Source of the DNA: Holophagae bacterium
GTDB lineage: Bacteria; Acidobacteriota; Thermoanaerobaculia; Thermoanaerobaculales; Sulfomarinibacteraceae
DNA: 40,012 nt
Direction: 5' to 3'
Assembly: GCA_030618605.1 (NCBI GenBank)
Contig: JAUXDC010000005.1
Coordinates: forward strand, 1 to 40,012
Made by a program: the position numbers and the translations under genes. Shown here piece by piece: positions 49 through 22,726 of the stretch (position 1 is its first letter; every line of letters starts with the position of its first letter). The notes below the pieces were generated by a model, which was given only the letters and a program-made list of their open reading frames with translations, did not search any database and was not told the DNA's origin.

Positions 49-1479
49 CTACTGATCCCCATCCAGATAGCCGAGGGACTTCAGCTGGTCGATCTCCTCT
101 TCAGAGAGTCCGGTAGAACCTTCGCCCGCCATGGACAAGGACTTGAGGTCGGCTCTGTCCGCCACCGCTTTGGCTTCCAGGGCCTCGAGCTTCTCACTAA
201 AATTTTTCACCAGATCCGGATGGGCACTCGCCTGATTGATTCTCTCACCGGGATCATCCTGAAGATCAAAGAGCTCACCACGGGTTTTCACATACTTCCA
301 CCGCTCCGTCCGAAGAGCCTGCCAGATATAGACTTCATCCGAAAGCGGCCGATCTTCGCCGAACATGGGTACGAGACTCTTTCCCTGAGATACCGGGAGG
401 TCAGGGAGTTCAACAATGTCGAGTATCGTCGGTACGATATCGACAATCGAAGCGAGGTGCGGGACTCGGGTCCCGCCAAAGGAATCCTCAGGCATCTTGA
501 TGATCAGCGGGACCTGGGTCACGGTGTCATAGAGACCCAGAGAATGGAGCAACCGATTATGCTCCATAAAGTTCTCGCCATGATCTGCCGTCACGACAAT
601 GAGCGAGTTGTCGTAAAGACCCAGGCTCTTGAGTTCCTCAATCAAAAGCCGCATCTGTTCGTCGATGTAGGCTATTCCTGTGTCATAGAGCTCAACAAGG
701 AAATCTATTTCCTCAGGTGTCATGAATTCCGAGATTTCTTTTCCTTCATCCAGGCGAGCGTTCACCATCCTGAGGAAACGAGTCGCGCACAAACCGCTGC
801 GGCAGCCATCAAAACTGTCACTGTCGAATCTCAGATTTTCGGAGAAAAAGGGCTCAGGACAGTGGTAGGGAAGACCTTCAGGTTTGGAGTGCACATCGTA
901 AACATGGAGAAAAAGAAAGAAGGGGCTTGCTGGCTGATCGTGAAGCCAATCGAAGACCCTGGGCCCGATCGAAACGATGTTTCCGCCCTGGTCATCAAAA
1001 TGATCGAAACCCTGGGAGAATCCAAATTTTCGAGTCAACCAAATGCAGTCGACAAAGGCCCCGGTCTCGTACCGGTGATTTTTCAAATGCTCCGCCAGAG
1101 TCACCATCGACTCGGGCATCGGAACATCTCTTCCGGGAAAAATCTGATGGGTCCTTGGGTACAAGGAGGTCAACATCGTCACGTGGGAGGGGAGCGTTCC
1201 CCCTCCGTTCTGAGAAAATTGATCGAAGACAATAGCGTCCTTAGCCAGTTCCTCCAGGAAAGGAGTCGTCGACCTCGAATAGCCATAGAGACTCATATGA
1301 TCGGAACGCAAGGTGTCTATCGAAACCAGGATTACATTGGGTGGCGTGCCATGAGCCGGGATGCTGCTCCGATCGCCGGATTCCTTCCGGCATGCCGACG
1401 ATCCAACAACAATGACTACGAACAGCAACGCCCAGGTCTTGGTCAGTTTCGTGCTCGTCCAATGGTGTCTCACCTTCAC
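49..1479 (-). CDS. Sulfatase / alkaline-phosphatase superfamily lipoprotein (Thr at nucleophile position)
   Basis: NVILVSIDTLRSDH, GTLPSHVTMLTSLYP, VTADHGENFMEH; lipobox GSSAC; C-terminal LKSLGYL. Confidence 0.9.
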   Translation of the reverse strand: MKVRHHWTSTKLTKTWALLFVVIVVGSSACRKESGDRSSIPAHGTPPNVILVSIDTLRSDHMSLYGYSRSTTPFLEELAKDAIVFDQFSQNGGGTLPSHVTMLTSLYPRTHQIFPGRDVPMPESMVTLAEHLKNHRYETGAFVDCIWLTRKFGFSQGFDHFDDQGGNIVSIGPRVFDWLHDQPASPFFLFLHVYDVHSKPEGLPYHCPEPFFSENLRFDSDSFDGCRSGLCATRFLRMVNARLDEGKEISEFMTPEEIDFLVELYDTGIAYIDEQMRLLIEELKSLGLYDNSLIVVTADHGENFMEHNRLLHSLGLYDTVTQVPLIIKMPEDSFGGTRVPHLASIVDIVPTILDIVELPDLPVSQGKSLVPMFGEDRPLSDEVYIWQALRTERWKYVKTRGELFDLQDDPGERINQASAHPDLVKNFSEKLEALEAKAVADRADLKSLSMAGEGSTGLSEEEIDQLKSLGYLDGDQ

Positions 1480-3824
1480 TGGAGATACCCCAGAGCTTTC
1501 ATCTGACTCCTGACTTCCTCATCAACGGAAAGGCTCGCATCTGGAGATTCCCGATCTCTCTTGTCGATCCAGAAGTGCATCCACTCCCGAAGGCCGTTCC
1601 AACAGGCCAATTCCGATCCATCATCAACAACCTCTTGACGCTGCTCACCCGGATCGTCTTCGAGGTCGTACACACGAAGATAGGGTTCGCTCTGACCAAA
1701 TTGGTCGATTTTGGCTTGACTGAAGAGACATTTCGTATTCTGAACCCACACAGCGTTATACGAAATTGCGCCTTCGTCAGCCACCCCCGATTGGTACACT
1801 TCGGAGAAGAGAGGCAGCGGCGATTGCCGGTCTGAAGCATCAAGCACGCGGGGAGAAATACTGAGGTCCGGCGTGACAGGAAATTCCCAATCCAACCCAA
1901 GAACCTCTCCAATCGTCGCCGGGATCTGCGTCGTGCTGACTCGTGTTTGGATTTCCCTACCCGCCCACTGCCCATCTGGGAAACGGATGATCAGAGGAAC
2001 ATGGGTGAGTTCTTCAAACAGGGTTTTCCCATGATCAAAACCACCGTGATCATAGAATTCCTCTCCATGATCACTGATAAAGAGAATGAGGCTGTCATCA
2101 TACACACCGAGAAACCTCAAGAAGTCAATAAAGCGTCCAAAGGCAGCATCTTCGTAAGCGACCTCTGCAGAGTAGAGCGCCGAAATGTGCGCCAACTCCT
2201 CAGGGTCTGAGCCATGATGATTGGCGGAAAAGGGCCCCGGGAGATACTCGGCTTCATCCAACTCACCCGGAAAAGGTTCAACCCACTTCATGAACTCCCC
2301 GGTGGGGGTGTAAGGACCGTGGGGACCAACAGTGTGCAAATAGGCAAACAACGGCTTCGAGAATCCATCATTCCAAAGCAATTGATGGCGGAGAATTCCC
2401 CGAATACCATCGGAACGGAGTTCCCGACCGCTGAGTTGACTGTTGATCGAGAAATGGCTGAACGCCTGATCGAATCCAAATGCCGGCCCTACGACGAACG
2501 ACTGCGAAACTCCGACTGAAAGCCGTCCTTCTTCCGCAAGTCTCAAGCCAAGCGGCTTCAGTTGTTCCCAACCCATGCGGACATTGCCGCTCATCATCTG
2601 ATGAAAAACCGGGGGTGCCCCCGTCAACAGTGATGCCACGGCGGGGAGAGTCCAACTGCTGGCACTCTCGGCATTCAAATAGACAACCGAGTCCGCCGCA
2701 AATCCCGTGATATTTGGGCTGAGATCTGCAGGACCTCCAAAGGGCCCAAGCTTGTCGGTGCGAAGGGCGTCGACAAGGTAGATAAACACATTGGTCATTC
2801 TTTCGGAAGCTGAAGTCTGTTTTTGATTGAGTGGAGAATCTCTCAAGGCACCCGGATTGAGCGAAAAATGGACCTGTGCACCCTTCATGGCGAAGCCGCT
2901 GCCGGGAGAATGGACGAGGATCCTCATCTTTCCCATCTTGTTCCATGAATTATCTACAGTAATCCGCTGCCCGCTGAGAGCCTCAGGCTTCCCCCGCCAA
3001 ATCTCACCCCATGTTCCATCCGTTGCGGTCGCGGCAATGTCTATGACGACTTCCATACCATCGACACCCCCTTGAACCTCCCCGAAGCCCATTGAGAAAA
3101 GATGTTTCGGCGCAATGGGAATCAGAACTTCAGCTCCATCGGCAATATTCAGGACCTTTGATGCCTGGTCAAAACCGCTGGCGGAAAGGAAGGCAAACGG
3201 GGCCGGAATATGACTCGGGACGATCGCGATGGCATAAAATGCGGCCGACAAGAGCCTCGGATCTTCCGTCTCAGGAAGCGTCGTGGCAAAGGCAAACTTC
3301 AGTTCCATCCGATTCAGACCGTCTTGAAGAGCTTCGGCCGGCAACTTGATCCGATAGTCCGAAAGAGCTGACTTCAATTCAACCGCCGGGAGTGTCACGC
3401 CATTGAGGATCACACTCAACTGCTGGAGATCACCACCCTCGGAAGGGATCCCTCGTGCTCGAAAGAACATCCCCAAATCATCATTCGTGGGCCGCCAAAA
3501 CTCAAGTTCGGCCCGACCTCTTTCAACAAAAGCGAAGAAACCACCATCAGTCGACACAGGAGTCCACCCCGAACCAGGAGTCAGTGAACCTCCCTGGCCG
3601 TCAAATTTCCAGGATGGGGCGCCAAAGTCGTAAATCGTCACCTGCGGGTCCAGCAGGAAGTTCAGGGGAAGCGTCCTCGGTTGATCCCCCACGCCGACTC
3701 CGAGACCAATCTGCATAGCAGCAGATTCGGACACCGACCCGATTTCATTCCGACCTCCCGGCTTGCACCCAGTGATCGACAGAAATCCAATACACACCAG
3801 GACAAAGAGCCCTTTCACAGACAT
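1476..3824 (-). CDS. Sulfatase / alkaline-phosphatase superfamily lipoprotein with N-terminal beta-sandwich-like extension (Thr at nucleophile position)
   Basis: ORF extends to 3950, but MSVKGLFVLVCIGFLSITGC (start at 3824) is the likely lipoprotein signal. NVFIYLVDALRTD, SWTLPAVASLLTG, LFISDHGEEFYDHGG; C-terminal MKALGYLQ. 4-nt overlap with the downstream gene. Confidence 0.85.
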   Translation of the reverse strand: MSVKGLFVLVCIGFLSITGCKPGGRNEIGSVSESAAMQIGLGVGVGDQPRTLPLNFLLDPQVTIYDFGAPSWKFDGQGGSLTPGSGWTPVSTDGGFFAFVERGRAELEFWRPTNDDLGMFFRARGIPSEGGDLQQLSVILNGVTLPAVELKSALSDYRIKLPAEALQDGLNRMELKFAFATTLPETEDPRLLSAAFYAIAIVPSHIPAPFAFLSASGFDQASKVLNIADGAEVLIPIAPKHLFSMGFGEVQGGVDGMEVVIDIAATATDGTWGEIWRGKPEALSGQRITVDNSWNKMGKMRILVHSPGSGFAMKGAQVHFSLNPGALRDSPLNQKQTSASERMTNVFIYLVDALRTDKLGPFGGPADLSPNITGFAADSVVYLNAESASSWTLPAVASLLTGAPPVFHQMMSGNVRMGWEQLKPLGLRLAEEGRLSVGVSQSFVVGPAFGFDQAFSHFSINSQLSGRELRSDGIRGILRHQLLWNDGFSKPLFAYLHTVGPHGPYTPTGEFMKWVEPFPGELDEAEYLPGPFSANHHGSDPEELAHISALYSAEVAYEDAAFGRFIDFLRFLGVYDDSLILFISDHGEEFYDHGGFDHGKTLFEELTHVPLIIRFPDGQWAGREIQTRVSTTQIPATIGEVLGLDWEFPVTPDLSISPRVLDASDRQSPLPLFSEVYQSGVADEGAISYNAVWVQNTKCLFSQAKIDQFGQSEPYLRVYDLEDDPGEQRQEVVDDGSELACWNGLREWMHFWIDKRDRESPDASLSVDEEVRSQMKALGYLQ

Positions 3825-3946
3825 CTTCAAGAGGTCCCGCCTTTCGAAGCAATCTCTTGTTGTACTTATAAAAGATAGGTTTTCCACAGTTCCCTTATCC
3901 TCTCGATTCCTGTCCGAGGCTTCAACGGAGCCATGACAGGGACATC

Positions 3947-5398
3947 TCACTCAATACAAACCCTGCGAATCACAACCCCGAGTACCCGCTCGGTACCGTT
4001 CAATTCCTCAGAAACAAAGGGAGGAGCGGCCTTCAGGTCGACACGAACCGCGGCGCCGGGATCAAGATCAGCCTTCATGGGCATTCGAACCGAGAATTTT
4101 CCGTTCGGTGGGCGAAAGGAAAAAACCGGCTGACCATCAACAGAGGTGCTCAACCGAAAATCATCAATTCGGTAGTTGATGCCCTCCAGAACCAGGGAGT
4201 GAAAGACTCGTTTCTCTTGGGGCACTGAAACTCGCAGGGCCGCCTCCGGACCAATCCAGCGACCGAGGCCTTCCAGGCCTTCTTCTTCCGGAAAGATCCC
4301 ATGAATCGCCGCCACATCGACGTCTGTCGTCACGAAATCCACACACCCCGCGACGACGCCCTCACGGATTTCGACACTCTCAAGAAAGACACCAAGCTCA
4401 CGGTCATCTGCGAGTCCGACGCTTGAAGGCCGAAATCCCTTGTCGGTGACAACCCGGATTTCAACCAGTGAACTCGACTGGGCCACCGAACACGATGTGA
4501 CCAGGACAAAAGGGCGCCCCTGGGAGGGGCTCTGCAGGTCGGCAAGATGCTCATTACCCAGGAATACACTGATGGTATACGCATCGGGACGGTAGTTCAC
4601 TCCTCGAATGATGACTTGATATCTCCCATCCCTGCTGGGTGGCTTTTCGAGAATCGCCCGGAGCTCCAATCCCGCCCATTGACCGACCATTCCAGGCTCC
4701 GGCGCGAACATACCGGAAAACGGCACATTGATATTTTGGGAACGGCGAGAAAAATTGACGACAGGCTTTGATTCTGCGGGAAGGATCGAGACTTCATCAA
4801 CCACGGTTCCCAAAATTCTTTCGTCCTGACTGCCATGATCCGATGGTTTGAAGGTCGATGATACTTCGAGTTCGATCTTGAGATCCTGTCCGGGCACGAG
4901 GTCCAGCACCTCGGACCACAGAGAGAAAGCAGTACCTCGTTGAGGATTGTCAATTCTCGCCACAGTCTCTCCTCCCAGGAGGAGTAGAAGCGAATAGTCG
5001 TCGGACCGGGGATTTAAACCGGAAACTCTGATGAAAAAGCGTTGACTCCCTGAACCGGCCACACCTGGAACCCGAAGAACCACCATGGATTCTTGTCCCA
5101 TCCACCGACCATATATTTCGGTTTCCCGGTCATAAAAACCCTGGACCACGGCCCCGGCAAGTGTCTCGGCACCCAGATCCACCGAAGTCGAGGCGGAAAT
5201 AGCCCCACCCCCAGATTGAACCTGAACCGGTGAGATCTCACCGGCGGAAAAATCCGAGGTGCCGCCGGCTACCCCTGAATCATCTGTTTCATCAATCCGA
5301 CACCCGAACCACAGGAAAAACCCCACACAAAGGAGCACTGCCGGAACGACACGTGACAATCTGGAAACAAGCAAAGGAACTCCCTCACACACGATCAT
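3947..5398 (-). CDS. Predicted lipoprotein with three tandem ~120-aa beta-sandwich-like repeats
   Basis: Signal with lipobox-like FLWFGC. Three internal repeats, each running from (G)RWxG/QWAG through GxNxRxDxYxL and PxxG to (D)(E)R.LGV/T....V.I. Confidence 0.75.
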   Translation of the reverse strand: MIVCEGVPLLVSRLSRVVPAVLLCVGFFLWFGCRIDETDDSGVAGGTSDFSAGEISPVQVQSGGGAISASTSVDLGAETLAGAVVQGFYDRETEIYGRWMGQESMVVLRVPGVAGSGSQRFFIRVSGLNPRSDDYSLLLLLGGETVARIDNPQRGTAFSLWSEVLDLVPGQDLKIELEVSSTFKPSDHGSQDERILGTVVDEVSILPAESKPVVNFSRRSQNINVPFSGMFAPEPGMVGQWAGLELRAILEKPPSRDGRYQVIIRGVNYRPDAYTISVFLGNEHLADLQSPSQGRPFVLVTSCSVAQSSSLVEIRVVTDKGFRPSSVGLADDRELGVFLESVEIREGVVAGCVDFVTTDVDVAAIHGIFPEEEGLEGLGRWIGPEAALRVSVPQEKRVFHSLVLEGINYRIDDFRLSTSVDGQPVFSFRPPNGKFSVRMPMKADLDPGAAVRVDLKAAPPFVSEELNGTERVLGVVIRRVCIE

Positions 5399-5445
5399 CG
5401 GATTGATGATGCTACCACTCTCTCAAGAACATGGGTGGCCGGAAC

Positions 5446-5484
5446 AACAAAAAAAGGGCCTCTCCGAATACCGAAGAGGCCCTT
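5446..5484 (-). terminator. Intrinsic terminator after the 5506..6201 gene
   Basis: Perfect 10-bp stem AAGGGCCTCT/AGAGGCCCTT (5454-5463 / 5475-5484) followed on the minus strand by 7 T. Confidence 0.9.
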
Positions 5485-5505
5485 AAATTCTCTTATTATC
5501 GAGGC

Positions 5506-6201
5506 TTATGGAGCCAACGTACGATAGGACTCAAACTCGTCATACCACACATCGCCTGTGGTGGTCGCATCAACAGCGGAGGTCGCACCAAGACGGACAT
5601 AATCGACAACGAGGTTGTCGTTGGTCAGAGTGGTGTTCGATCCCTTGAGATTCCATGGATCCGCAGAAGTGTTCCTGGCGTAGATCTTGGCCATCCCGTC
5701 ACCACTACCAGCCTGCCACTCGATCATGATGTTCTTCTTCTTCGAGGTTTCGGCAAGAACAACACCACCAACATACGTGAAAGTGCCGTCATTCTGGCGA
5801 GCTCCCACCCGGACAGCATAACGGGCACCATCGGGGTTGCCCACCCTCAAGCGACGAAGCAAAACACGGTATACAGTCACATCACCGGCGCCGATGACTC
5901 CATCAACATCATCGCGAGCAAGGAACATGGTGTGACTGGTGACGCAGGTGTCGCCACAGTTGTCCATGAAAATTCCGCCGGAACGGTCGATCCAGAAGGC
6001 AGCCCGATACACCGTTTCATCAGCGGGACTGTGATCCTCGACATAGGCGGTGGAGGTCGAACCGTCAAAGGTCACAACCAGCCCATAATTCGTCCCATTC
6101 ATCGCAGCAGCCGGGGTAACGGTCAGCTGCGTCGCAGCCATCAACGGGCTTCCAATGAGGAGAACACCAAGAACAACAACTGTTAACTTCAACGCTTTCA
6201 T
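5506..6201 (-). CDS. Secreted hypothetical protein
   Basis: MKALKLTVVVLGVLLIGSPLMAA signal peptide. Start at 6201 preceded by strong SD (GGGAGGAAGAGTATG). C-terminal WYDEFESYRTLAP. The listed ORF extends upstream to 6279, but 6201 is the better start. Confidence 0.8.
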   Translation of the reverse strand: MKALKLTVVVLGVLLIGSPLMAATQLTVTPAAAMNGTNYGLVVTFDGSTSTAYVEDHSPADETVYRAAFWIDRSGGIFMDNCGDTCVTSHTMFLARDDVDGVIGAGDVTVYRVLLRRLRVGNPDGARYAVRVGARQNDGTFTYVGGVVLAETSKKKNIMIEWQAGSGDGMAKIYARNTSADPWNLKGSNTTLTNDNLVVDYVRLGATSAVDATTTGDVWYDEFESYRTLAP

Positions 6202-6294
6202 ACTCTTCCTCCCAGTTTTATGGCCCAAAGCATTGAGCCTGGTTTTCCTTACACAATAAGGACGTACGACACCGGCCATAGTAACAAATAAAGA

Positions 6295-6336
6295 CCACGG
6301 CGTGTAGTCCAGAGCCTACTGTGTGTAGCCCAGAGC
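6295..6336 (-). repeat. Degenerate 21-bp tandem duplication spanning a stop codon
   Basis: Minus strand GCTCTGGGCTACACACAGTAG followed by GCTCTGGACTACACGCCGTGG (17/21 identical). Confidence 0.8.
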
Positions 6337-7956
6337 CTCCAGACGAGCCAGATCCTCCGGGCTCAAGGTGGCGGTTTCCACAAAACCATGGCGCCCAGAG
6401 GCTTCCATCCGAGCAATGGAGTCGAGGATTTGACCTGAAGAAGCTAGCGCGTTCCTCTCCTTGACCGACATGGTCGACAACCGGCCCGTACTGAGGATGT
6501 CATTCAACTCGTCCGGATCCTGAGCGAGCGAATAGAATTCCTCTTCTCCAGTATCCAGGTTTCGAATCAGCTTATAGTCACCCAATATGACGGCCCGGAG
6601 ATCAACCTCTCCAGATGACTTGAAGGTCATCGAAATCTTGGGCACCTCGCCGTCAAGGGTGTCACTGACCAGCTGCGGTAATGCAATTTTTCCACTGCTC
6701 TGTCCTACCGGTGGAAGGCCGAGAATCTCACGGATAGTCGCATTCATATCCACGTGGCTGATCGGCGCAGCGACCTCTGTGCCGGGGCTGATGAGACCAT
6801 CCGCCACCACAATCAGGGGGACACGAATCAGCGAGTCGTAGACCTGTTTCTTGTGTCCGAAAAGATTGTGTTGTCCCAGACCCTCTCCATGATCAGACGT
6901 CAGGACGACCAGTGAATGCTCCAACAGCCCTCTCTGCTTCAAGAGTTCCAAAAGCCGACCAATCTGGCGATCGACATACTCCACCTCAAGCGCATACCGC
7001 TGTCGCGAAACGGCATCATCAATTTCCTCGTCTGCGAAAAAACTCAAGCTCGCGGGAACCTCTTGACCCGCCTGGGTCTTGACGATCAACGTCGCGGGCA
7101 ACTGACACCGATTGAGACGCCGCGGCGGCATGCCCCTGGTTCCTTCCCACCCGCTCCCGAGAGCGACATCAACTCCGGAAGCCCGGACCTCAAGCTGCCT
7201 GAATCCAAGGTGTCCCTCAAAACCATCATCAAGAGGCTCGAAACTCACCTCGTTCAGACCCGATTTCAAAAGCAGGGGAAATTCACATCCCAGACCATCA
7301 ACCCGACACGAGCCCAAGCTCTCTCCATTGAGCTTCACTGAAAACTCGAAATAGTCCAATCCTGGTGGGCTATAGGGTTCGTGGGGATCTGAATAATGAG
7401 CAAAGAGAAAGACGGGTTTCTCAAGAGTATCCGGAAGAATGCCTTCGATCCTGTCGGTGACCTCTTCGGCCTTCAAAAACCACTGACTCTCAAAGTGATC
7501 TTCATAGACATCGAAGCCCTGAGACAGACCGAAACGGGCCTTGAGTACACCCAAACTGATAACTGCATAGCTTGAATAGCCCTCATTTTTCAGACTTTCC
7601 GCAAGGGTTTCGAAAGACTCCGGAAGTATGTCCGTGTTCTTTTCCACCCTGTGCCTGAAGGGCAGAACGCCGGTAAACATGGAGGAGTGACTTGGGCCGG
7701 TGACCGCAATATGCGAATAGGCACGGCGAAACAACGCACCTTGATCAGCAAGCGCGTCGATAACAGGTGTCTGTGCCATTTCGCCATAACATGACACGTG
7801 ATCTGCCCTGAGAGTATCGACAACGATCAGGATCAGATTCCGCCTGGGCCCCTTCTCCTCAACGACGGGCTTCCCGGAACACCCCCAGAAGAAAAACATC
7901 ACCACGACGAGAATGAAAAACCACATCGCGCAACTGGTACAGGATGAACCTCTCAC
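6316..7956 (-). CDS. Sulfatase / alkaline-phosphatase superfamily lipoprotein with internal beta-rich insertion (Thr at nucleophile position)
   Basis: NLILIVVDTLRADHVSCYGE, AVTGPSHSSMFTG, VVLTSDHGEGLGQH; lipobox-like FFWGC; C-terminal LEALGYTQ. Confidence 0.9.
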   Translation of the reverse strand: MRGSSCTSCAMWFFILVVVMFFFWGCSGKPVVEEKGPRRNLILIVVDTLRADHVSCYGEMAQTPVIDALADQGALFRRAYSHIAVTGPSHSSMFTGVLPFRHRVEKNTDILPESFETLAESLKNEGYSSYAVISLGVLKARFGLSQGFDVYEDHFESQWFLKAEEVTDRIEGILPDTLEKPVFLFAHYSDPHEPYSPPGLDYFEFSVKLNGESLGSCRVDGLGCEFPLLLKSGLNEVSFEPLDDGFEGHLGFRQLEVRASGVDVALGSGWEGTRGMPPRRLNRCQLPATLIVKTQAGQEVPASLSFFADEEIDDAVSRQRYALEVEYVDRQIGRLLELLKQRGLLEHSLVVLTSDHGEGLGQHNLFGHKKQVYDSLIRVPLIVVADGLISPGTEVAAPISHVDMNATIREILGLPPVGQSSGKIALPQLVSDTLDGEVPKISMTFKSSGEVDLRAVILGDYKLIRNLDTGEEEFYSLAQDPDELNDILSTGRLSTMSVKERNALASSGQILDSIARMEASGRHGFVETATLSPEDLARLEALGYTQ

Positions 7957-9518
7957 AGGGCGAGTCCTCTCAAACGGGCTGCGGCCAACCTCAAATCCCG
8001 TGCAACATCATCAATGTCCTCAAACCGCAATTCACAATCGGTCGCCAAACCCTCCATGATTTGTGCCGTTGATCGCAGCTCGCCGATGATTGAGGTTTCC
8101 ATTGAACCCACCGGCGCCGATGCGCCCGACTGCATCCCGGCCAGCTGACCGATGACCCCCAAAAGGGCGTTGTTGACTTCGGTCTGGTAGAGGCTCAGGT
8201 TACGGACTGAACGCAACGCCAGGCGACGGATCAGTTTCCCCAGACCACCAAGAGAGGCGTGAGCGTCTGAATCCGGACCACGGGCAATCAAAGCCCCAAT
8301 GTTGCCGATCAGCATATTCAGCTCGGCCATCTTCTCCTCAGAAATCCCCGACTGGTCCGACGTGACCTGAGCCCCGGCGATCGCAACCGGCGCCGGCAAA
8401 GACTGCCTCTGCTCAAGCTCGACACGGACGCGCTGAATCCTGTCAACGATAAAACGGGCCCGAACGGCAGGACTGTGAAAGGTCTCGACGTCACGCACGG
8501 CCCGACGCCCCCTTCTCAGCGCTTCGTCCTGATCCTCGTACACGCGACGCATTGCCCGGGCCGCAGCTTCCAGGTCCGGCTCCGCCCAGAGCGCGTCCGC
8601 CGGGTAGGGTTCGCTCCCCGGACCGATCTCAGTGGACTCGTAGGGAACGAGGAAGCTGTTGTTGTCATTCATGAAATCCAGGTTGCCCGAGTAGGCCGTT
8701 GCAATGACCGGTTTACCCAGCGCCATCGCCTCGGCCATCGTCAGCCCAAATCCTTCCGATCGGTGAAGGGAAACGTAGGCGTCACAGGCATTGATGAACG
8801 CCTTCTGGTCATCCGCAGGCAGATAGCCGTCACGGTACTCGATGTCAGGCCGGCCTGCTGCTGCCTCCCGAATACTCTCCGCCTGCTCTGCATGGCGTTC
8901 TCCGTTGATGGATTTTACGACCAGTCGAGGCCCCTCCCCTGAAGAAAAGGCCATCTTGAAGGCCTCGATCACCGCGATCGGGTTTTTGCGCGCAAAGAGG
9001 CTGTCCAGGTCGAAGCAGAACATGAAGAGGTAGTCCTCGGGCAAAGCGAGATCAACCCGGGTTCGGGGGGGTGGCTCGGGCGTTTCAATCGGAAGGGGAA
9101 AGGGCTGGACCGGTTTGCAGATTTTGCGCGCGATCGAACGGGCCGAGAAGGAACTGTTGGCCCAGACCTCGTCCAGGAAGTCGGCACTCTTCGCCATCCA
9201 GTCCGGAAACTCCTCCAACTCCCAGGCCCAAAGACCGATTGTGTAACGGTCTTTGAGACACGAATGCCCGAATCGGTCGAGAAAAAGAGGTACGCTGTCC
9301 GCATTGACGCCGATAATGTTGATGTCGTAATCGGGGTCTTTGCTTCCAAAATCGTCGAACTTCGACTCCTGCCGGCTGACGGTTTCGGTGAATGGCACAA
9401 CTGCGTAGTCAATGCCGCCTTCACGGAGTGCTGATACCAAAAGGCGAGTATGTTCTCCGACCCCACTCTCGGCATAAACATAACCGTAGACGTTGACTCC
9501 CGGTTTCAAATTTCCCAA
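7953..9518 (-). CDS. GT4-like glycosyltransferase with helical C-terminal tail
   Basis: GVNVYGYVYAESGVGEHTRLLVSAL and SLHRSEGFGLTMAEAMALGKPVIAT. 4-nt overlap with the sulfatase-like gene. Confidence 0.88.
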   Translation of the reverse strand: MGNLKPGVNVYGYVYAESGVGEHTRLLVSALREGGIDYAVVPFTETVSRQESKFDDFGSKDPDYDINIIGVNADSVPLFLDRFGHSCLKDRYTIGLWAWELEEFPDWMAKSADFLDEVWANSSFSARSIARKICKPVQPFPLPIETPEPPPRTRVDLALPEDYLFMFCFDLDSLFARKNPIAVIEAFKMAFSSGEGPRLVVKSINGERHAEQAESIREAAAGRPDIEYRDGYLPADDQKAFINACDAYVSLHRSEGFGLTMAEAMALGKPVIATAYSGNLDFMNDNNSFLVPYESTEIGPGSEPYPADALWAEPDLEAAARAMRRVYEDQDEALRRGRRAVRDVETFHSPAVRARFIVDRIQRVRVELEQRQSLPAPVAIAGAQVTSDQSGISEEKMAELNMLIGNIGALIARGPDSDAHASLGGLGKLIRRLALRSVRNLSLYQTEVNNALLGVIGQLAGMQSGASAPVGSMETSIIGELRSTAQIMEGLATDCELRFEDIDDVARDLRLAAARLRGLAL

Positions 9519-9565
9519 CTTTTACCTCCGACGACCCGATTTTGACACGGCCACATATCAGCCCC

Positions 9566-12256
9566 TCATCCAGGAGGCTGCGATCGCCGCGCAATCCAAG
9601 TGACATGATGTGACCACTGAAGGGCAACAGCCTGCAGGTCGAGTCGTTGAGGACGAGCGATGGTCCCCTGATCGACGACGGCAGTCATGGCTGCCACCGC
9701 CGGCGCCACCAGCGCCGCCGGATTCCCTGCGACATCGGCAGCATCGAAGAGCCCCGTCGGCCTGTCGATACCTTCCATACTCGACCGGCGGCGAGCGACG
9801 ACACCCTTCCCCAACGAATCGGCCAGTGCGAAGCACGAGTCAAAACGAGGCTCCGGATTGATCGATAACAATCCGTCGCTCGCAGCCACTACCGAGTTGC
9901 AAAGGCCGGCGCTCAAAGGTCTGCTGATCACACGGATCGGCAAGTGGTCGACCTCCTCCGCCAATGTTCCGGCGTCACGAGCCAGGAGACACAGGCCGAT
10001 ATCGGATCGACCCAATGCCACAAGCCTTCGAACACAGTCAATCAAGGCCGAAGTAACACGCTCTCCATCGTAGTCTCCGCCACTGACCATCGCCGCAAAC
10101 CAGAACACACCCTCACCGACGGAAATCTCCTCCAGTGCCCCTGGTTCCACCTCTTCCCCATGCCAGGCGGGCAAGAAAGGAAGATGGCGAACGGGAATCG
10201 ATACCCGGTCTTCCAGAATACGTTGGGCTGAAGTGGTTGGAACCCAGACCTCGTCAAGGCACTCCAGGAGATCTAAATGCACGGACTCAGGCGAGTCTGT
10301 CAGATAGCCGACCAACCCCCCACCCACTCTCGTGCCGAAAGGCAGTGAATTGATGACGGTTTCGTACCGAGCGGCCGCCAGGTCAAGAACCGTCACCGGG
10401 AAAGGGGCGCCATGCATGTGACGAATCTGGTCCGAGGTCATTAAATCAGGCAATTCGTGATCCAGGGCGACTGCAACGGTTGGCAATCCGGCCCGTTCGA
10501 TCACACGCGTCAAACCCGAAACGAGACTCCTCGCGCCCCGCTCGCCTTCAAAATACCCAACGATGTTGACTCCCGGAACGGCCAATGGCCGCGGATCACA
10601 CTGATTTCCCGGCCGAATGGGAGGCTTTCGGGCGGGACGCGGCACCGTGGCACGCTCGTCAACCAGTTTGGAATCATGACCCCGCCCATCGGACGAAACT
10701 CCCTTGAGCGCCAGCGCGAATCGACTCTTCATCGATAGAGACAGCCTGACGGGCCGCACCAAATCGGGATGAAGGCCGTGAAGGGGAGCTCCGTGGACGA
10801 CCATCCAGTAGGCAAACGCACTCCGATCACGAGTGAGGGGCTCCGGGTAGAGATCCCGGACCTCTGCCCGCATCCCATGGATCAGCAAGCCCAACCGAGT
10901 CACCAGGGCGTCACCGTCACCATCGTCTCCCATGGACTCATTGAGCCAGCCGGCGTGCTCGTTCGGGTTGCCGAGGTCAATGCCATCGAGGCGCTCCTGA
11001 TCATCGTTCGTATTCGAGTCGGTCCGGCTGTTCCAAAGGGTACGAAGTGGTCCGACAAAAGCCTCATGCATGTGTGCCTGGGCGGACCCCTCGTCCAGGA
11101 ACCAGTTGATGAATCGGGCAAGATCCTCGCCGAGGATTTTGGGGAAGACCTCACGAAGATCAGCCCGGTCCCGCCACAGGAAGAGCGCCGCCCGGTGCGT
11201 CACACCGTGGTCAAACCACAGTGGTTCAGTGAGCCAATCAAGATAGGAGTCGTCGCATGCGGGATCGAAGGGATCGGGCCACCTGAGTCCCTCCGGATCG
11301 ATTTCCTGAAGAGCCACCCGGACAAAACGTGGAATCGGAATGTCGGTATCCCGGAAATGATGGTAGACGTAGGGCAACCCCCTCATTTCATGGTGCCCGC
11401 TGTCTTCGACCAAGGTCGAATAGTGTTCGAAAAGGGGCCGTAACTCAGGGCGTGACCACAGGTCGAGCCGATCCTGATGCTTGCTGATGGCATCGATCTG
11501 TTTGGGATCGACACCACTGAAGTGGAAGAAACCGACCCTTTCCCCGTCGACCTCCCAGTGGTCCGACTCCCATTTTGGAAAACGGTGGGGAAGATTCCAG
11601 TAGGCGATGTTGTAGATCGGCTCTCGGACGATCGCAACTGATTCGAGGAAGGCCGGCGTGAAATCCATCCAGGACTGGTCAACGAACATCCCATTCGTCA
11701 GGTCGTTGATGCAGTAACGATGAAGCCGATCGCACCACCAGTCGAGAAAACCCTCGGTTCGCTCGTCGAGACGGAGACCGAGAAAACCCAGGTTGTAGAT
11801 GCCACACATGCCGATGACCCGCTCCGGCGGCCGGCAGACATTGTCGAGTGGTTGGGTCAAGTGGGGCGTCAGCACCGCAGAATGCTCGGACAGTGCATTT
11901 TCGAGCCCCGTCAGCCGGTCGTGAACCAGGATGTCAGGATCGAAATAGAACACCCGGTCAAGTCCAATGACATCACGCAAGTACTTGATCACGAACGGTT
12001 TTACCGCGGTGTTGAGTTCCAGGATGTCGTAGCGAAAGGCGAAGTTGCTGAATGCAGGAATATCGAGCTCATGCGCAAGGATGATCTCAAACGGGAAATC
12101 GTCATAGGGAACGCGATCATCCAGTGTGTCGACCAGACACACGTACACCGTCGCACCTGGGTGGTACTTAAGGTAGGACTCTGCAAAAACCCGGGTCATG
12201 CCGAGGTAGTTGTTTGAAGAAATCGTAAACACGTCGACCGGCGTCGATGTCGGCAT
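9566..12256 (-). CDS. Two-module glycosyltransferase: N-terminal GT-A-like nucleotide-sugar transferase plus C-terminal degenerate GT4-like module
   Basis: N-terminus FTISSNNYLGMTRVFAESYLKYHPGATVYVCLVD, DRVFYFDPDILV. C-terminal module starts VPGVNIVGYFEGERGARSLVSGL, parallel to the neighbouring GT4 start. Confidence 0.8.
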   Translation of the reverse strand: MPTSTPVDVFTISSNNYLGMTRVFAESYLKYHPGATVYVCLVDTLDDRVPYDDFPFEIILAHELDIPAFSNFAFRYDILELNTAVKPFVIKYLRDVIGLDRVFYFDPDILVHDRLTGLENALSEHSAVLTPHLTQPLDNVCRPPERVIGMCGIYNLGFLGLRLDERTEGFLDWWCDRLHRYCINDLTNGMFVDQSWMDFTPAFLESVAIVREPIYNIAYWNLPHRFPKWESDHWEVDGERVGFFHFSGVDPKQIDAISKHQDRLDLWSRPELRPLFEHYSTLVEDSGHHEMRGLPYVYHHFRDTDIPIPRFVRVALQEIDPEGLRWPDPFDPACDDSYLDWLTEPLWFDHGVTHRAALFLWRDRADLREVFPKILGEDLARFINWFLDEGSAQAHMHEAFVGPLRTLWNSRTDSNTNDDQERLDGIDLGNPNEHAGWLNESMGDDGDGDALVTRLGLLIHGMRAEVRDLYPEPLTRDRSAFAYWMVVHGAPLHGLHPDLVRPVRLSLSMKSRFALALKGVSSDGRGHDSKLVDERATVPRPARKPPIRPGNQCDPRPLAVPGVNIVGYFEGERGARSLVSGLTRVIERAGLPTVAVALDHELPDLMTSDQIRHMHGAPFPVTVLDLAAARYETVINSLPFGTRVGGGLVGYLTDSPESVHLDLLECLDEVWVPTTSAQRILEDRVSIPVRHLPFLPAWHGEEVEPGALEEISVGEGVFWFAAMVSGGDYDGERVTSALIDCVRRLVALGRSDIGLCLLARDAGTLAEEVDHLPIRVISRPLSAGLCNSVVAASDGLLSINPEPRFDSCFALADSLGKGVVARRRSSMEGIDRPTGLFDAADVAGNPAALVAPAVAAMTAVVDQGTIARPQRLDLQAVALQWSHHVTWIARRSQPPG

Positions 12257-12333
12257 TCAAAACCCTTTCGTTGCGGGTGAGATTATCAGATCAAAAGCCC
12301 CGTACCAAATCTCCGGATTCAGCGAAGATACCC

Positions 12334-12339
12334 TATAAT
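12334..12339 (+). promoter_or_regulatory. Putative -10 box for the coiled-coil/GT2/methyltransferase operon
   Basis: TATAAT upstream of an AGGAG SD at 12354-12358. Confidence 0.5.
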
Positions 12340-12365
12340 CGGCATGGCAGGCCAGGAGAAATACT

Positions 12366-13400
12366 ATTAACGACGACAAGGTTCAACTGCTTCTCGACCA
12401 ACTCGAAGCGCTTTCGTCACCGAGAGCGGCGGCGTTCGGCGTGCTCGGCCGGTTGATGTGGACCGTGCTGCGACCTTTGCGCCGTGTCCTCTGCGGCAAC
12501 CTCGCCGAAACGGCCGAGGCTCTCCATAGCTATGTTGCCGACGCTGAGCACGATCGGCTGGTTTTTTCCGACTCCCTCGATGCTGCCCGCAGAGACCTCG
12601 CCCAACTCGGCGCCCTTCAAGAGGATCGGACCATAAACACCCAGCGTCATTTGACCCTTCTGCAGGACGACTACGACAAAACCAAGCAACGCCTCGCCGA
12701 CATTGCGAACGCAACACAGCGAGACGCCGAGAACCTCGGCGGGCACATCGAGGACATTCAGGCAGACTATGACGCCTTCAAGCTTTCGATGACCGAGACC
12801 ATCACCGCCGTCGAGGAGGACGGCGCGGAATTCCGAACGCATCTCGGCAACATCCAGGCGGACAGCGACCTCCAGAAGAAATTTTTCGACACGATGGCGA
12901 CCGCTCTCCAAAAGGATTCCAAAACCCTCACCCAACACCTCGCCCGCATCCAAGAAGACGCGGAAAATTTGAGCCAACACCTCGCGAATATTCAGAAAGA
13001 TATCGACCTCCAAAAAGAAATCTCAAACGAAACAACCTCCACAATCCAAAGGGACGCACAGACCCTCCGCCAACACCTCGTCCAGATCCAAGAGGACCAT
13101 GACACCACCAAGGAAACGGCAGGTAACCAACTGAGAGCCCTCGAGGCCTTCAAATCCCAGTCCTCCTTGACGACCCAGCGCCTTGAGAAAGACGCCGGCG
13201 CCGTACTCGATCATATCGGGCGCATCCAATCTGACCATGACAGGGTCGCCTCCCTGGCCGGGCAAACCCGCGCGGACACCGATGAACTCCGGGCAGCCAT
13301 CGAACAACTCGGTCAGCTGGCCGCCGACCTCCACCAGGACCTTACGCATGTGGCCGAGGCAATCTCCCAATTGCACGGCGCCGACCCGGACCTGTCGTGA
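12366..13400 (+). CDS. Coiled-coil repeat protein with N-terminal amphipathic segment (proposed ATT start at 12366; ORF track begins at GTG 12441)
   Basis: Repeats of the form xQxDxxxLxxHLxxIQxDxDxxK. Reading frame open upstream to the stop at 12336. AGGAGA SD 6 nt before ATT. Confidence 0.75.
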   Translation: MNDDKVQLLLDQLEALSSPRAAAFGVLGRLMWTVLRPLRRVLCGNLAETAEALHSYVADAEHDRLVFSDSLDAARRDLAQLGALQEDRTINTQRHLTLLQDDYDKTKQRLADIANATQRDAENLGGHIEDIQADYDAFKLSMTETITAVEEDGAEFRTHLGNIQADSDLQKKFFDTMATALQKDSKTLTQHLARIQEDAENLSQHLANIQKDIDLQKEISNETTSTIQRDAQTLRQHLVQIQEDHDTTKETAGNQLRALEAFKSQSSLTTQRLEKDAGAVLDHIGRIQSDHDRVASLAGQTRADTDELRAAIEQLGQLAADLHQDLTHVAEAISQLHGADPDLS

Positions 13401-14410
13401 AATTCACCGTTGTCGTTGTAACGTGGAACGGCGCTCAATGGATCGACGACTGCCTTCAATCGGTCCTCGATCAGGAAGGCGACCCGAACATCATCCTGGT
13501 CGACAACGGAAGTTCTGACGACACGGTCGAAAGGGCCAACAGAATCCTTCAGGACAACGGCTCAAAGGCCGGGTCGAGCACCATTCTTCGCCTCAAACGC
13601 AACCACGGATTTCCAACCGGTGCGAACCGGGGCATGGCAGCGGCACTCAACGCCGACCCCGACCTCATCGGCATCCTTCTGCTCAACCAGGACGCTCACC
13701 TTGAACCCGGCGCTCTCCAGGCCTTTTCCCAATTCCTGGAAGAAAACCCCAAGGCAGGCGCCCTTGGAGCCAGAATCCTCTATCTCGATCGTGCCTCGTT
13801 GCAACACGCGGGCGGATACCTCGAACATCCACGAATGGTCGGTCTCCACTTCGGTCACCATGAACCTGTCGATGAGAAAAAATTCAACGAGCCGCGCGAG
13901 GTCGACTACGTGACTGGAGCAGCGATGATGCTGAGGGCCGAATGCCTTCGAGATCTCGGGCTGTTCGAGGAGCTGTTCTCGCCGGGATACTACGAGGATG
14001 TCGAGCTGTGTCAGCGTTTAATTCACAATGGATGGTCGATTTGGTACGTACCCGAGGCGACGGTGATCCATGCGGAATCTTCGTCCTTTTCCAACAGGGA
14101 TCTGCGCCTTCGCGTAAGCCACCGCAACCGGCTGATCTTTGCCCTCCCACACTTTCTCGAGGCAGCTGCCGCCGAGAAATTTCTGGATGCCGAGTCCCAC
14201 TTTCTCATCAATGACGCACACCACGACGAAGTTCGTGCTATTTCCGGTGCTGCCCTCGATCTGCTTACTCTCCTCCCGGCTGCGCTCAACGCACGTATCG
14301 GTGACGGCCATGGCGACACCGAAGGCGAAGAACGGGCCCGGCAGGTTCTCGTCTCCCTTCGCGACGTCTGCCGAGACATCCTGATTCCTCCGCCGACCAG
14401 GAGCGAATAA
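13397..14410 (+). CDS. Family-2 glycosyltransferase
   Basis: MKFTVVVVTWNGAQWIDDCLQSVLDQ, ILVDNGSSDDT, LLLNQDAHLEPGAL, GYYEDVELCQRL. 4-nt overlap with preceding gene. Confidence 0.93.
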   Translation: MKFTVVVVTWNGAQWIDDCLQSVLDQEGDPNIILVDNGSSDDTVERANRILQDNGSKAGSSTILRLKRNHGFPTGANRGMAAALNADPDLIGILLLNQDAHLEPGALQAFSQFLEENPKAGALGARILYLDRASLQHAGGYLEHPRMVGLHFGHHEPVDEKKFNEPREVDYVTGAAMMLRAECLRDLGLFEELFSPGYYEDVELCQRLIHNGWSIWYVPEATVIHAESSSFSNRDLRLRVSHRNRLIFALPHFLEAAAAEKFLDAESHFLINDAHHDEVRAISGAALDLLTLLPAALNARIGDGHGDTEGEERARQVLVSLRDVCRDILIPPPTRSE

Positions 14411-14415
14411 ATCGA

Positions 14416-16134
14416 ATGCCCATGTCCACAGATCCGCTGACCGGCATCCGCATCCTCGACGCAACGCTGAACTACTCGGACACCTCCGAAGACAGAGTCC
14501 TGGCGACACTCGAAAAGGCCACAGACCGATCCTCCGAATCCGACGAACTCGCCGACGGGATAGTTGACTGGCCGACTCGATATCACTTTTCTCGCATGCG
14601 GGGGCACCTCATCCGGCCCCTTGGCCTCAAACCCGGCATCGAGGTCCTCGATGTTGGTTGCGGTACCGGGGCGGTCACCAGGGCCCTCGGGGAACGCGGG
14701 GCGCGGGTACTCGGTATCGAAGGCGCCCTCCCGAGAGCCCGGGCCGCCGCCCTGAGGTGTGCCGACCTCGAACATGTCGAGATCGTCTGCGGCGACATTT
14801 CACACCTTGAAACCGACAAGACCTTTGACCTCGTCTGTCTGGTTGGAGTTCTCGAGTACGCGGCCACCTCGGTGGGTGGCAAGCACGGCCCCGAGTCGCT
14901 GCTCAAGCACCTCAGGAAGCTCGTCAAGCCGGGCGGCGCCCTCCTCGTCGCTATCGAAAACCAGATCGGACTCAAGTATCTGTTGGGCTACCGGGAGGAC
15001 CACGTTGCGCTGCCGTGGGCAGGACTCGAGGACTATGCCGAGGGCTTTGGCGCCCGGACCTGGTCGCGGCGGCAACTCGGCATCCTCCTTGGCACAGCGG
15101 GCTTTGAAGAGCAACGCTGGCTTTTCCCTTATCCGGACTACAAGCTGCCATCGGTCATCCTCTCCGAAGGCGCTTTTGAACTGGACAACGCTCCGGAGCT
15201 GGTCGACCAGATCGTGCGCCTCCCTGTTCAGGATTTCGCCTTTTCTCGCACGATTCTGGCTGATGATCGTCGCGTTCATAATGTTTTTCTCAATGCGGGC
15301 CTCGGACCCGATGTCGCCAATTCCTTTCTCGTTCTCGCAAGCTCCGACAATCACACCCTTGATGAGTTGGTTGACCCCATGTCGCTGGCCTGGATATTGA
15401 GCGGTGAACGCCGGGCTCAATGGAAGAGGACACAGGTGGTGGTTGAGCGAGACAACGGCCTTCGAGTAATTGCACGCCCCAACTCGGTTGACCAGAATGT
15501 CCGGAAAGACCGTTGGCTCACTCAGTCCCCGGTGCGTGATGACCCCTGGCGCCGGGGACCGACACTGGAGCAGATTGCCCTCGAATCCTGCCACACCCGT
15601 GACGAACAAGGCCTGGCCGCGGCTCTGAAACACTGGACATCGTGCCTCAACGAGGCGCTGGTGCAAGCATCGGAGCATGCCACGAGCCATCCCTATTCCC
15701 CATCCCCGGGCACGCCGGCCCTTCCGGACGACATGCTGGACGTCAGTCTGTCGAACTTTGTGCTCTCGGATGAGGGGGTCGTTTTTGTTGATCGTGAGTG
15801 GCGGGTGGACGGCGGAGTCGATCCCGGACTGGCCGGCCTGCGAGCTCTGTGGTTTTTCTCACTCGACCTGATGAACGGCGGCGCCCGTCATCCGTGGCCG
15901 GATACCCTGACGGTCGACGACATTTGCCGCGAGATGGCGGCGATGTGCGGGTTCCCGGCCCAACTCGACGACCTCAATAGAATGTACTGCGCTGAGGCCG
16001 AACTCCAATCATTGGTGATCGGCTTCGACGTGGAACGCGTGACACGGGATCTCCGCGGTTCAGGACAATTGACCCTCGTAAATCCCAACGCGTCCTGCCC
16101 CATCCGCTGGACCCATCTGCACGAATTCCCCTAG
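14416..16134 (+). CDS. SAM-dependent methyltransferase fused to a possible kinase-like domain
   Basis: EVLDVGCGTGAVTRALGERGARVLGIE (SAM-binding motif). C-terminal half has LDVSLSNFVLSDEGVVFVDREW, resembling a catalytic D..N plus DxEW pattern. Confidence 0.85.
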   Translation: MPMSTDPLTGIRILDATLNYSDTSEDRVLATLEKATDRSSESDELADGIVDWPTRYHFSRMRGHLIRPLGLKPGIEVLDVGCGTGAVTRALGERGARVLGIEGALPRARAAALRCADLEHVEIVCGDISHLETDKTFDLVCLVGVLEYAATSVGGKHGPESLLKHLRKLVKPGGALLVAIENQIGLKYLLGYREDHVALPWAGLEDYAEGFGARTWSRRQLGILLGTAGFEEQRWLFPYPDYKLPSVILSEGAFELDNAPELVDQIVRLPVQDFAFSRTILADDRRVHNVFLNAGLGPDVANSFLVLASSDNHTLDELVDPMSLAWILSGERRAQWKRTQVVVERDNGLRVIARPNSVDQNVRKDRWLTQSPVRDDPWRRGPTLEQIALESCHTRDEQGLAAALKHWTSCLNEALVQASEHATSHPYSPSPGTPALPDDMLDVSLSNFVLSDEGVVFVDREWRVDGGVDPGLAGLRALWFFSLDLMNGGARHPWPDTLTVDDICREMAAMCGFPAQLDDLNRMYCAEAELQSLVIGFDVERVTRDLRGSGQLTLVNPNASCPIRWTHLHEFP

Positions 16135-17786
16135 CCATCTCCCTTGTGAGAGAATCGGGCTAGATCCTTGATCTTCCGCAGGATGGCCCATGTTTTCCAC
16201 ATGGTCGATCTGTGAATGTCGTCCAGTTGTGCCCCAATCTGCTGGAGCTCGACCTCCATGTGGAGATTGTTCTGCCGCAAGGCCTCACCCTCCTGGAGTG
16301 CGACTTTCAGCGCCCCCTCCATCGCCCAGAACGACAGAGGATTCGACCCTTCCCCGTTGAGATCAGGGGCTTTCTCGGCCCCGGAGACCCACCGGCGCAA
16401 CGGCCCAGTCGTCGCATCGATACTGAAGTGCTCGCGTGCCATACGCCAGGCACGCTCACCAATCTCCGGCAGGGCAGCTCGCTGCTCAAAGACCTCCAGC
16501 AAGATCGAGGTCAAGGAGGCAGGATCTCCCGGCCGATAGGCGTAGGCCACACCCCAATCGACACAGTCTTGAACCAGCTCGCTTTGGGAGGTGGCCACAA
16601 AAGGCAGTCTTGCCTCCATCCATGCAATCATCCTGCCGCTGGAACCCAATTCGCGCTCGTAAAGGACTTTTTCAGTGACGAGACCGAGGTCGGCACGTTC
16701 AACCCACCAGGCAAGTTCTCCGGTGCTCAGACTCCCCAGAAGGTGGATACGGTCAGAAAAGACTGAGGCCTCAGCCAGATTCCGAAACCGATCCCAGCTG
16801 AGCTCGTCATGGCCGGCGATCGCGCCTCCGGTCACTACCATGTGGAGGTCCTCGATCTTCTCCATGGCCTTTTCGATGCCGGCCACAAGAGTCTCGACAT
16901 CACACCATGTATTAAACCCTCCGCTCCACAGGATGACGAAGGCATCCTCGGCATTGCTCCACGCGCGATCGCTTTTGTCGGACGCAATTGCCGGTGTCTC
17001 AATGCCCGTTGCGGCACACGGCATAACGTGGACCATCTCGCGCCCGGCCGTTTCCCGATTGAGGCGCCCCAAAACACCCAACTGACCGATGGCAACCTCT
17101 CGCTGCCGACTTGAAACCACCGAGAAAACGTCACCGTTCTCCACCAGGGTCGCCACCAGATTCCTGTAGGCGGTCAGCTGATCTCCCTCCGAACACCTGG
17201 CCGCCCGGGCCTGGGCCTCGGCCATCGGGTCTCCAAAAAGATCGACCCACACCGGCCTGCCACCTGCCACCTCGACACATCGGCCCGAGGGCCGGGCAGA
17301 AGCGCCCACCAGGCACGCAGGGTCAAAGGCCTTGATCAGATCCGGAATGATGTCACCCGTATGGAAATCGTCTGAGGACATTCTGACGATCATCATCGAA
17401 TCGGTTTTTTCGACTTCGATGCCGGGATCGGCACCGTCATACCCGCCCGCCATTCTCTCGCACAAGACGAGCGGCCGAATGCCGTCAGCCACCAACCCCT
17501 GAACGAACTGCCACGTTCGGCCACCAGGTGCGTAGTTCATTCTGGCGTGTTCAAAGGGCAGGGGAGCGGTTCCGAGAAGAGCGACAGCCCGACCCGAACC
17601 CACTGTTTCCCGCCACCGCCGCACCGCAGTCAAGGCATCCAAAGAACTCTCCTCACCATCCGGTATTGACCAAGCAACATTATTATTGTCAGAGAAAACA
17701 CCAACACCGTCAACAGCACTCTCACTTGGGCATGCACTGAAACGACAACCGCGACGAACACGGCTGATCCTCACCCACTGGCTCAT
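16131..17786 (-). CDS. Glycosyltransferase (GT-B/GT4-like) with C-terminal coiled coil
   Basis: VILWSGGFNTWCDVETLVAGIEKAMEKIEDLHMVVTGG, HLLGSLSTGELAWWVERADLGL. C-terminus ALRQNNLHMEVELQQIGAQLDDIHRS. Confidence 0.75.
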   Translation of the reverse strand: MSQWVRISRVRRGCRFSACPSESAVDGVGVFSDNNNVAWSIPDGEESSLDALTAVRRWRETVGSGRAVALLGTAPLPFEHARMNYAPGGRTWQFVQGLVADGIRPLVLCERMAGGYDGADPGIEVEKTDSMMIVRMSSDDFHTGDIIPDLIKAFDPACLVGASARPSGRCVEVAGGRPVWVDLFGDPMAEAQARAARCSEGDQLTAYRNLVATLVENGDVFSVVSSRQREVAIGQLGVLGRLNRETAGREMVHVMPCAATGIETPAIASDKSDRAWSNAEDAFVILWSGGFNTWCDVETLVAGIEKAMEKIEDLHMVVTGGAIAGHDELSWDRFRNLAEASVFSDRIHLLGSLSTGELAWWVERADLGLVTEKVLYERELGSSGRMIAWMEARLPFVATSQSELVQDCVDWGVAYAYRPGDPASLTSILLEVFEQRAALPEIGERAWRMAREHFSIDATTGPLRRWVSGAEKAPDLNGEGSNPLSFWAMEGALKVALQEGEALRQNNLHMEVELQQIGAQLDDIHRSTMWKTWAILRKIKDLARFSHKGDG

Positions 17787-17804
17787 CGGCAGATGTGGAG
17801 ACTC

Positions 17805-18929: not shown

Positions 18930-18975
18930 CCCAGCATCATACGCTGGGAGGCGACAGCGCTACACTGGACCCACA

Positions 18976-22705: not shown

Positions 22706-22726
22706 CATCTCCTTGGATAGAAATCT

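Follow-up and report, generated by a model that had tools for sequence, protein, structure and literature searches.

What reaction is catalyzed by a protein that has the profile of a sulfatase but a Thr in the position of the catalytic formylglycine? The question is raised by three minus-strand open reading frames (ORFs), designated w1 (49–1479), w2 (1476–3950) and w3 (6316–7956), in a 40,012-nucleotide stretch of DNA from a Holophagae bacterium (assembly GCA_030618605.1, contig JAUXDC010000005.1, positions 1 to 40,012), the whole of which is referred to here as the window. Their products match the sulfatase family PF00884 with 140.8, 95.1 and 155 bits, respectively (cut-off 25). The original prediction from this DNA was that Thr replaces the Cys or Ser that is converted to formylglycine in sulfatases and that the proteins may be phosphodiesterases or phosphotransferases acting on a surface glycan, Thr being used at this position by phospho-transfer enzymes such as LtaS and the phosphoethanolamine transferases. 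The present analysis suggests that w1, w2 and w3 are probably secreted metalloenzymes from the alkaline phosphatase superfamily, with an unmodified Thr as the nucleophile for phosphate esters, as opposed to a formylglycine for sulfate esters. That they are not formylglycine sulfatases appears close to certain from their sequences, and phospho-transfer chemistry is predicted with good confidence; within that expectation, passage of the group to a glycan and its release by hydrolysis are considered about equally likely.

In the translated sequences, the formylglycine slot is occupied by Thr95 in w1 (T-L-P-S-H99; codon ACG, 1195–1197), Thr434 in w2 (T-L-P-A-V, a V-type slot; codon ACT, 2649–2651) and Thr86 in w3 (T-G-P-S-H90; codon ACC, 7699–7701), exactly as originally claimed, and the slot contains no C/S-x-P/A-x-R motif in w1, w2 or w3. 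The assignment agrees across MAFFT, hidden Markov model alignment and hhalign to EptA, in which Thr86 of w3 and Thr434 of w2 fall on Thr282 of EptA; a further TLPAV string at residue 186 of w2 (codon 3393–3395) occurs by chance, the slot being placed at 434 by alignment. It should be noted that one-residue register slips do occur in C-T-x-x-R proteins (L002, L019 and L020), as would be expected if the alignment were wrong and a real Cys or Ser nucleophile were located elsewhere, but three independent alignment methods concur and none places Cys or Ser at the nucleophile position. An artefact of this type therefore has a negligible probability and, at the level of sequence, appears already refuted. 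Thr is present in the slot of 126 of the 130 PF00884-like ORFs in 80 loci that were picked by a pattern that leaves out the nucleophile, and the ratios of nonsynonymous to synonymous substitution (dN/dS) relative to congeneric orthologues are 0.09 for w1, 0.18 for w2 and 0.20 for w3, indicating purifying selection and functional constraint on the three proteins. Thus, the Thr is not there by chance.

The metal-site motifs D-T/A-L-R-x-D and DHGE are found in all three translations, in keeping with the original description, and the surrounding residues correspond closely to those of the phosphoethanolamine transferases. Residues D47, T86, H187, H192, D355, H356 and H368 of w3 align, with agreement from hhalign, with E244, T282, H380, H385, D455, H456 and H468 of Escherichia coli EptA, which correspond by motif to E246, T285, H390, H395, D465, H466 and H478 of MCR-1. 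In MCR-1, Zn1 is held by E246, D465 and H466 together with phospho-T285, and H395 holds Zn2; H478 is an active-site residue, the equivalent of which in LptA binds the second zinc (PMC5031297). The EptA-type Thr nucleophile and the acidic, Asp and His positions of the zinc ligands are matched in each of the window proteins by alignment: D55 (1315–1317), a further predicted first-site ligand, and D299-H300 of the DHGE motif (580–585) in w1, aligned with EptA E244 and D455/H456; D394 (2769–2771) and D627-H628 (2067–2072) in w2; and D47 (7816–7818) and D355-H356 (6889–6894) in w3. Equivalents of H390, H395 and H478 of MCR-1 are also present in all three, as the pair H192 and H197 (889–906) and H312 (544–546) in w1, the H539-T-V-G-P-H544-G-P motif (2319–2336) and H640 (2031–2033) in w2, and the invariant H187-Y-S-D-P-H192 pair (7381–7398) and H368 (6853–6855) in w3. 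The likeness to EptA, MCR-1 and EptC therefore extends to the Thr nucleophile, an acidic-D-H first metal site, H-x4-H-x-P and a late His. It is greatest in w2, where HTVGPHGP is almost the same as HTIGSHGP of EptA and the V-type slot T-L-P-A-V is comparable with T-A-V-S-V, whereas the slot is TxPSH in w1 and w3 as opposed to TxVSV. Similarity to EptA over the whole protein is low, hhalign giving E values of 1e-7 and 1.5e-14 with the class profiles A1 and A2, respectively.

The change from the sulfatases is not limited to the nucleophile. In a tally of all collected proteins, comprising 179 Thr-type and 16 Cys/Ser-type sequences (the latter including AslA, YidJ and YdeN of E. coli, and with five register-shifted C-T-x-x-R proteins scored as Cys-type by reading the sequence), an Arg four residues after the nucleophile is confined to the Cys/Ser type and is found in none of the 179, and GK[WHFY]H is present in 9 of the 16 but in 0 of the 179. 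Conversely, HxxxxHxP is present in 131 and a C-terminal LxxLGY in 155 of the 179 Thr-type proteins but in 0 of the 16 others. Among the 130 ORFs of the 80 loci, the +4 residue is His in 107, and His is found at the positions of H187 and H368 of w3 in 125 and 119, respectively. The LxxLGY[LI] element, which is LKSLGY in w1 (67–84), MKALGY in w2 (1485–1502) and LEALGY in w3 (6325–6342), is almost invariant, ends the sulfatase-like domain, precedes the tetratricopeptide repeats (TPRs) in fused proteins and was matched by no family model. The presence of the EptA-type His set together with the absence of the sulfatase residues indicates that the whole active site has been exchanged rather than one residue, and a residue test based on Thr, no +4 Arg, no GKxH, H-x4-H and LxxLGY parts the two classes cleanly in the sequences collected.

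A mechanism can be proposed, for which we infer metal occupancy, a phosphothreonine, the donor and a glycan acceptor. In w3 numbering, a divalent metal on D47, D355 and H356 would activate Thr86, which would attack the phosphorus of a phosphodiester donor to give a phospho-Thr intermediate; the acceptor would be activated by H187, H192 and H368, which would also bind either the phosphate or a second metal, and the group would be passed on to this acceptor, most likely a hydroxyl of a surface glycan from the adjacent glycosyltransferases, or to water. A number of observations weigh against this reading of the proteins. Their nearest matches in body and profile are the S1 sulfatases and the phosphonate monoester hydrolases, as opposed to EptA or LtaS. 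The five-helix membrane domain of EptA is absent, the window proteins having one hydrophobic segment, so that how a phospholipid donor would be reached is not evident. In phylogenetic trees EptA groups with Thr proteins of the V type, but the trees disagree on its exact position. Where w3 has T48, directly following the first Asp, w2 has Ala, yet Ala is also found there in 7 of 130 relatives. Finally, a test for a family-wide tie to glycosyltransferase loci was negative, a glycosyltransferase being detectable in just 6 of the 66 Thr-type loci of at least 9 kb in the wide sample described below, so a glycan substrate cannot be generalized to the family. With regard to the membrane domain, a soluble form of OpgB transfers phosphoglycerol between periplasmic glucans (PMC3818809), which indicates that a glycan phosphotransferase can do without one.

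The part of the original prediction that invoked chemistry of the LtaS/EptA type is supported by the aligned zinc ligands, the three His residues and the loss of Arg and GKxH, but the proteins are not themselves members of either family. Membership is ruled out by the architecture and by scores far under the cut-offs: 41.9 bits for w1 and 23.4 for w3 with the EptA family NF028537 (cut-off 500) and 47.1 bits with the curated LtaS model (cut-off 970). LtaS and OpgB share the Thr nucleophile and D-H metal ligands with the window proteins but are distant in sequence, and their native forms are membrane proteins.

The body on which this site is built is that of a sulfatase. The hhalign comparison with YidJ gives E=6e-40, PF16347 (the SGSH_C-like C-terminal region) is matched by w1 and w3, and among the best matches to the class in PDB sequences, the sulfatase-like entries all carry sulfatase or phosphonate monoester hydrolase names. 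An AlphaFold2 model of w3 (mean predicted local distance difference test, pLDDT, 85.7) has S1 sulfatases and phosphonate monoester hydrolases as its best folds in Foldseek, as does the model of w2, of which only the core is good (pLDDT 61). The S1 sulfatases, such as YidJ and choline sulfatase, resemble the window proteins in fold, sequence body, first-site Asp, D-H/N ligands and SGSH_C-like C terminus, but differ in that the window proteins have Thr for Cys/Ser, His or Val for the +4 Arg, no GKxH, His for a late Lys, an extra His ahead of the DPH motif and the added LxxLGY. The phosphonate monoester hydrolases (S1_0) are close in fold and perform phosphodiester chemistry on a sulfatase body, but with a formylglycine derived from Cys where the window proteins have Thr.

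Such similarities, together with the promiscuity of superfamily enzymes between sulfate and phosphate (PMC12421950), might be taken to indicate that the proteins are true sulfatases in which Thr itself, or a cofactor derived from it, takes the place of formylglycine. However, oxidation of Thr would yield a ketone and not formylglycine (PMC5066984), Arg and GKxH have been lost along with Cys/Ser, and separate Cys-type sulfatases are encoded in the same genomes, so this explanation is considered very improbable. A match to PF00884 and a sulfatase fold are both found in the window proteins, and PF00884 itself does not part the classes; in the 2016 description of SulfAtlas, 30 of its 59 seed sequences were reported to have Thr, and the profile to have spread false annotation (PMC5066984). 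Mislabelling by PF00884, as suspected in the original prediction, had thus been published before. The lack of a formylglycine-generating enzyme (FGE) was dropped as proof that the proteins are not sulfatases: no PF03781 and no TIGR03942 match above cut-off was found in the host assembly, which is 89.7% complete, proteins matching PF03781 occur in relatives, and this family takes in more than FGE. The host has the Cys-type sulfatases L001, L002, L019 and L020 despite the absence of an FGE-family protein or a clear anaerobic sulfatase-maturating enzyme from this assembly.

If the Thr is accepted as a phosphate-ester nucleophile, the proteins could still be secreted phosphodiesterases or phosphatases, like PafA or the nucleotide pyrophosphatases/phosphodiesterases (NPPs), that hydrolyze phospho-groups off glycans, lipids or nucleotides, whether these are the cell's own or foreign. 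In the NPPs, Thr is the nucleophile in a T-x-P-x-H context, which w1 and w3 share, and both of these exceed the cut-off of the type I phosphodiesterase family PF01663 (47.6 and 60.6 bits, against 23; w2 scores 20.9). The match is limited, however, to the first ~65–75 residues around the nucleophile (positions 1–74 of 342 in the model for w1 and w3), and the second metal site is different, being D-x3-H plus His in the NPPs and H-x4-H with a late His, as in EptA, in the window proteins. The absence of a membrane domain for a lipid donor, the location of most relatives outside glycan-assembly loci, and the counts of 22–33 PF00884 matches in the genomes of most other members of this GTDB family (four have 1–6), which resemble degradative repertoires, are in favor of hydrolysis; the window genes themselves lie in a biosynthetic glycosyltransferase locus. 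Hydrolysis is regarded as a possible but less likely function, and Thr-dependent phospho-transfer is preferred. Less likely by far is a role as inactive regulators on an alkaline phosphatase fold, as is debated for the periplasmic domain of YejM/LapC. E. coli LapC provides a precedent in having kept the Thr and lost the D-H ligands (aligned with G-R), and a degenerate relative is present in the host, but the ligands are intact in w1, w2 and w3, the full set is invariant across the class, and the dN/dS values speak for retained function. The degenerate relative, L023 (host contig C60), has kept the LxxLGY end, but its active site is destroyed, with LQASL in the slot and TSG for DHG, and it is likely to be a pseudo-enzyme.

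The Thr-type class is large. The 3.83-Mb host genome (Acidobacteriota, Thermoanaerobaculales) has 26 PF00884 matches, some being fragments of one gene, and the active-site columns identify 16 Thr-type, 4 Cys-type (slots CSPTR, CTAGR, CTPTR and CTPTR) and 4 unclassifiable proteins. When 85,000 genomes were scanned with the nucleophile-free pattern, at least 577 relatives were confirmed, the best 80 of which constitute the wide sample and belong to Acidobacteriota, Aminicenantes, Planctomycetota, Deltaproteobacteria, Eisenbacteria and Omnitrophota; a search of viral contigs with w1 gave no match. Among the matches listed, the closest named relative is a metagenome-assembled genome of the Thermoanaerobaculales (Acidobacteriota), in which w3 is 89% identical and gene order is the same throughout; the dN/dS values given above come from comparison with this genome. 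Long C-terminal TPR arrays are present in many Thr-type proteins (L004, L005, L007, L012 and L013 of the host and most loci of the wide sample), and 111 of the 179 exceed 640 residues. Same-strand pairs of Thr-type genes no more than 3 kb apart occur in 25 of 79 loci elsewhere. This frequency, the ~16 Thr-type proteins in the genome and the location of most copies away from glycosyltransferases contradict the earlier suggestion that three copies in one glycan locus reflect a special coordination.

Trees were constructed with 92 and with 46 sequences. In these, a single clade (SH support 0.98, ultrafast bootstrap 79) inside a wider Thr-type set contains the Cys/Ser proteins, but support in the smaller IQ-TREE analysis is only moderate, so that a change from Thr to Cys is one possible direction. 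The three window proteins are in three different Thr subclades and are therefore not recent tandem duplicates. A broader proposal, which is tentative and as a whole rather unlikely, would be that TxPSH/TxPAV proteins are a very large uncharacterized family of soluble cell-surface phosphotransferases that add or alter the phospho-substituents of surface glycans, combining a sulfatase body with an EptA-like Thr/His metal site, reaching >15 copies per genome in some Acidobacteriota and abundant in Planctomycetota, and that the formylglycine sulfatases may have evolved from among such Thr proteins through the acquisition of Cys, Arg and GKxH.

Nothing specific was found in the literature on TxPSH or TPR-linked sulfatases, and a large Thr-type subfamily seems to be undescribed; as far as the literature was searched, it is new that EptA-type His residues and LxxLGY co-segregate cleanly with Thr in proteins with a sulfatase body, that the class is expanded in this lineage and that its glycan locus is conserved. 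Of the host "sulfatases" that can be classified, some four fifths are of the Thr type, and counting PF00884 matches as sulfatases will overstate the use of sulfated polysaccharides in Acidobacteriota, Planctomycetota and their relatives. The residue test could be applied in annotation without delay. If phospho-transfer is the correct reading, these bacteria have a large unexplored phosphate chemistry at their surface, and the family is a test case for the interconversion of sulfatases and phosphotransferases in the alkaline phosphatase superfamily.

The three proteins are predicted from their sequences to be secreted and probably lipid-anchored. The Thr-type proteins of the window have a secretion-type N terminus followed by no further hydrophobic segment; in w1 (476 residues), the single N-terminal hydrophobic segment ends in a possible lipobox (GSSAC), and w3 (546 residues) is a predicted lipoprotein (FWGC). 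The 824-residue w2 has a beta-rich N-terminal region of ~380 residues. In the model of w3, a beta-rich insertion at residues ~200–312 (7021–7359), common to the w3 orthologue group, separates the His pair from the remaining catalytic domain and is a possible substrate-recognition module.

Overlaps of 4 bp between w1 and w2, between w2 and the gene at 3947–5398, and between w3 and the glycosyltransferase family 4 (GT4) gene at 7953–9518 suggest that the genes are likely organized in operons. The minus-strand gene at 3947–5398 encodes a secreted or lipoprotein-like protein with three tandem beta repeats of ~130 residues (pairwise E values of 1e-14 to 7e-7); it has no Pfam match, and its repeats were found solely within the genus. 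A second secreted protein without a Pfam match is encoded on the minus strand at 5506–6279, and its homologues adjoin Thr-type genes in two other loci (L192 and L221). The glycan-assembly genes at 7953–23701 encode GT4, GT-like, coiled-coil, GT2, methyltransferase, GT4, BNR, GT4, GT4 and GT2 proteins. Part of this set is found again, together with Thr-type genes, in G001:C277 and G005:C9, and glycosyltransferases flank the Thr-type genes here, in the congeneric copy and in two related loci. From this locus and its relatives, it is reasonable to propose that w1, w2 and w3 act on the glycan made at their locus.

Further features of the glycan loci may be mentioned. In the methyltransferase (14416–16134), the methyltransferase domain is followed by a conserved domain, D-x4-N…D-R-E-W, with a kinase-like look, and in relatives (L228:5514–7724 and L227:5911–8169) the coiled coil, a separate gene here (12441–13400), is fused to it. 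Searches of PDB sequences with the middle domain and the C-terminal half gave no match, kinases included. This architecture recalls that of WbdD, which is an O-antigen chain terminator (PMC3482155). A BNR/Asp-box (sialidase-like) protein is also kept in these loci (17805–18929; L228:4246–5412; L227:8218–9345). The C-terminal end FSAGFEPSDAGDWD and a second end, in the proteins encoded at 17805–18929 and 24879–27122, have in common the pattern F-x-x-GFE-x(4-6)-W; a similar C-terminal end, FRGDFESGDLGGW, is present in L022, and such ends may be a sorting signal.

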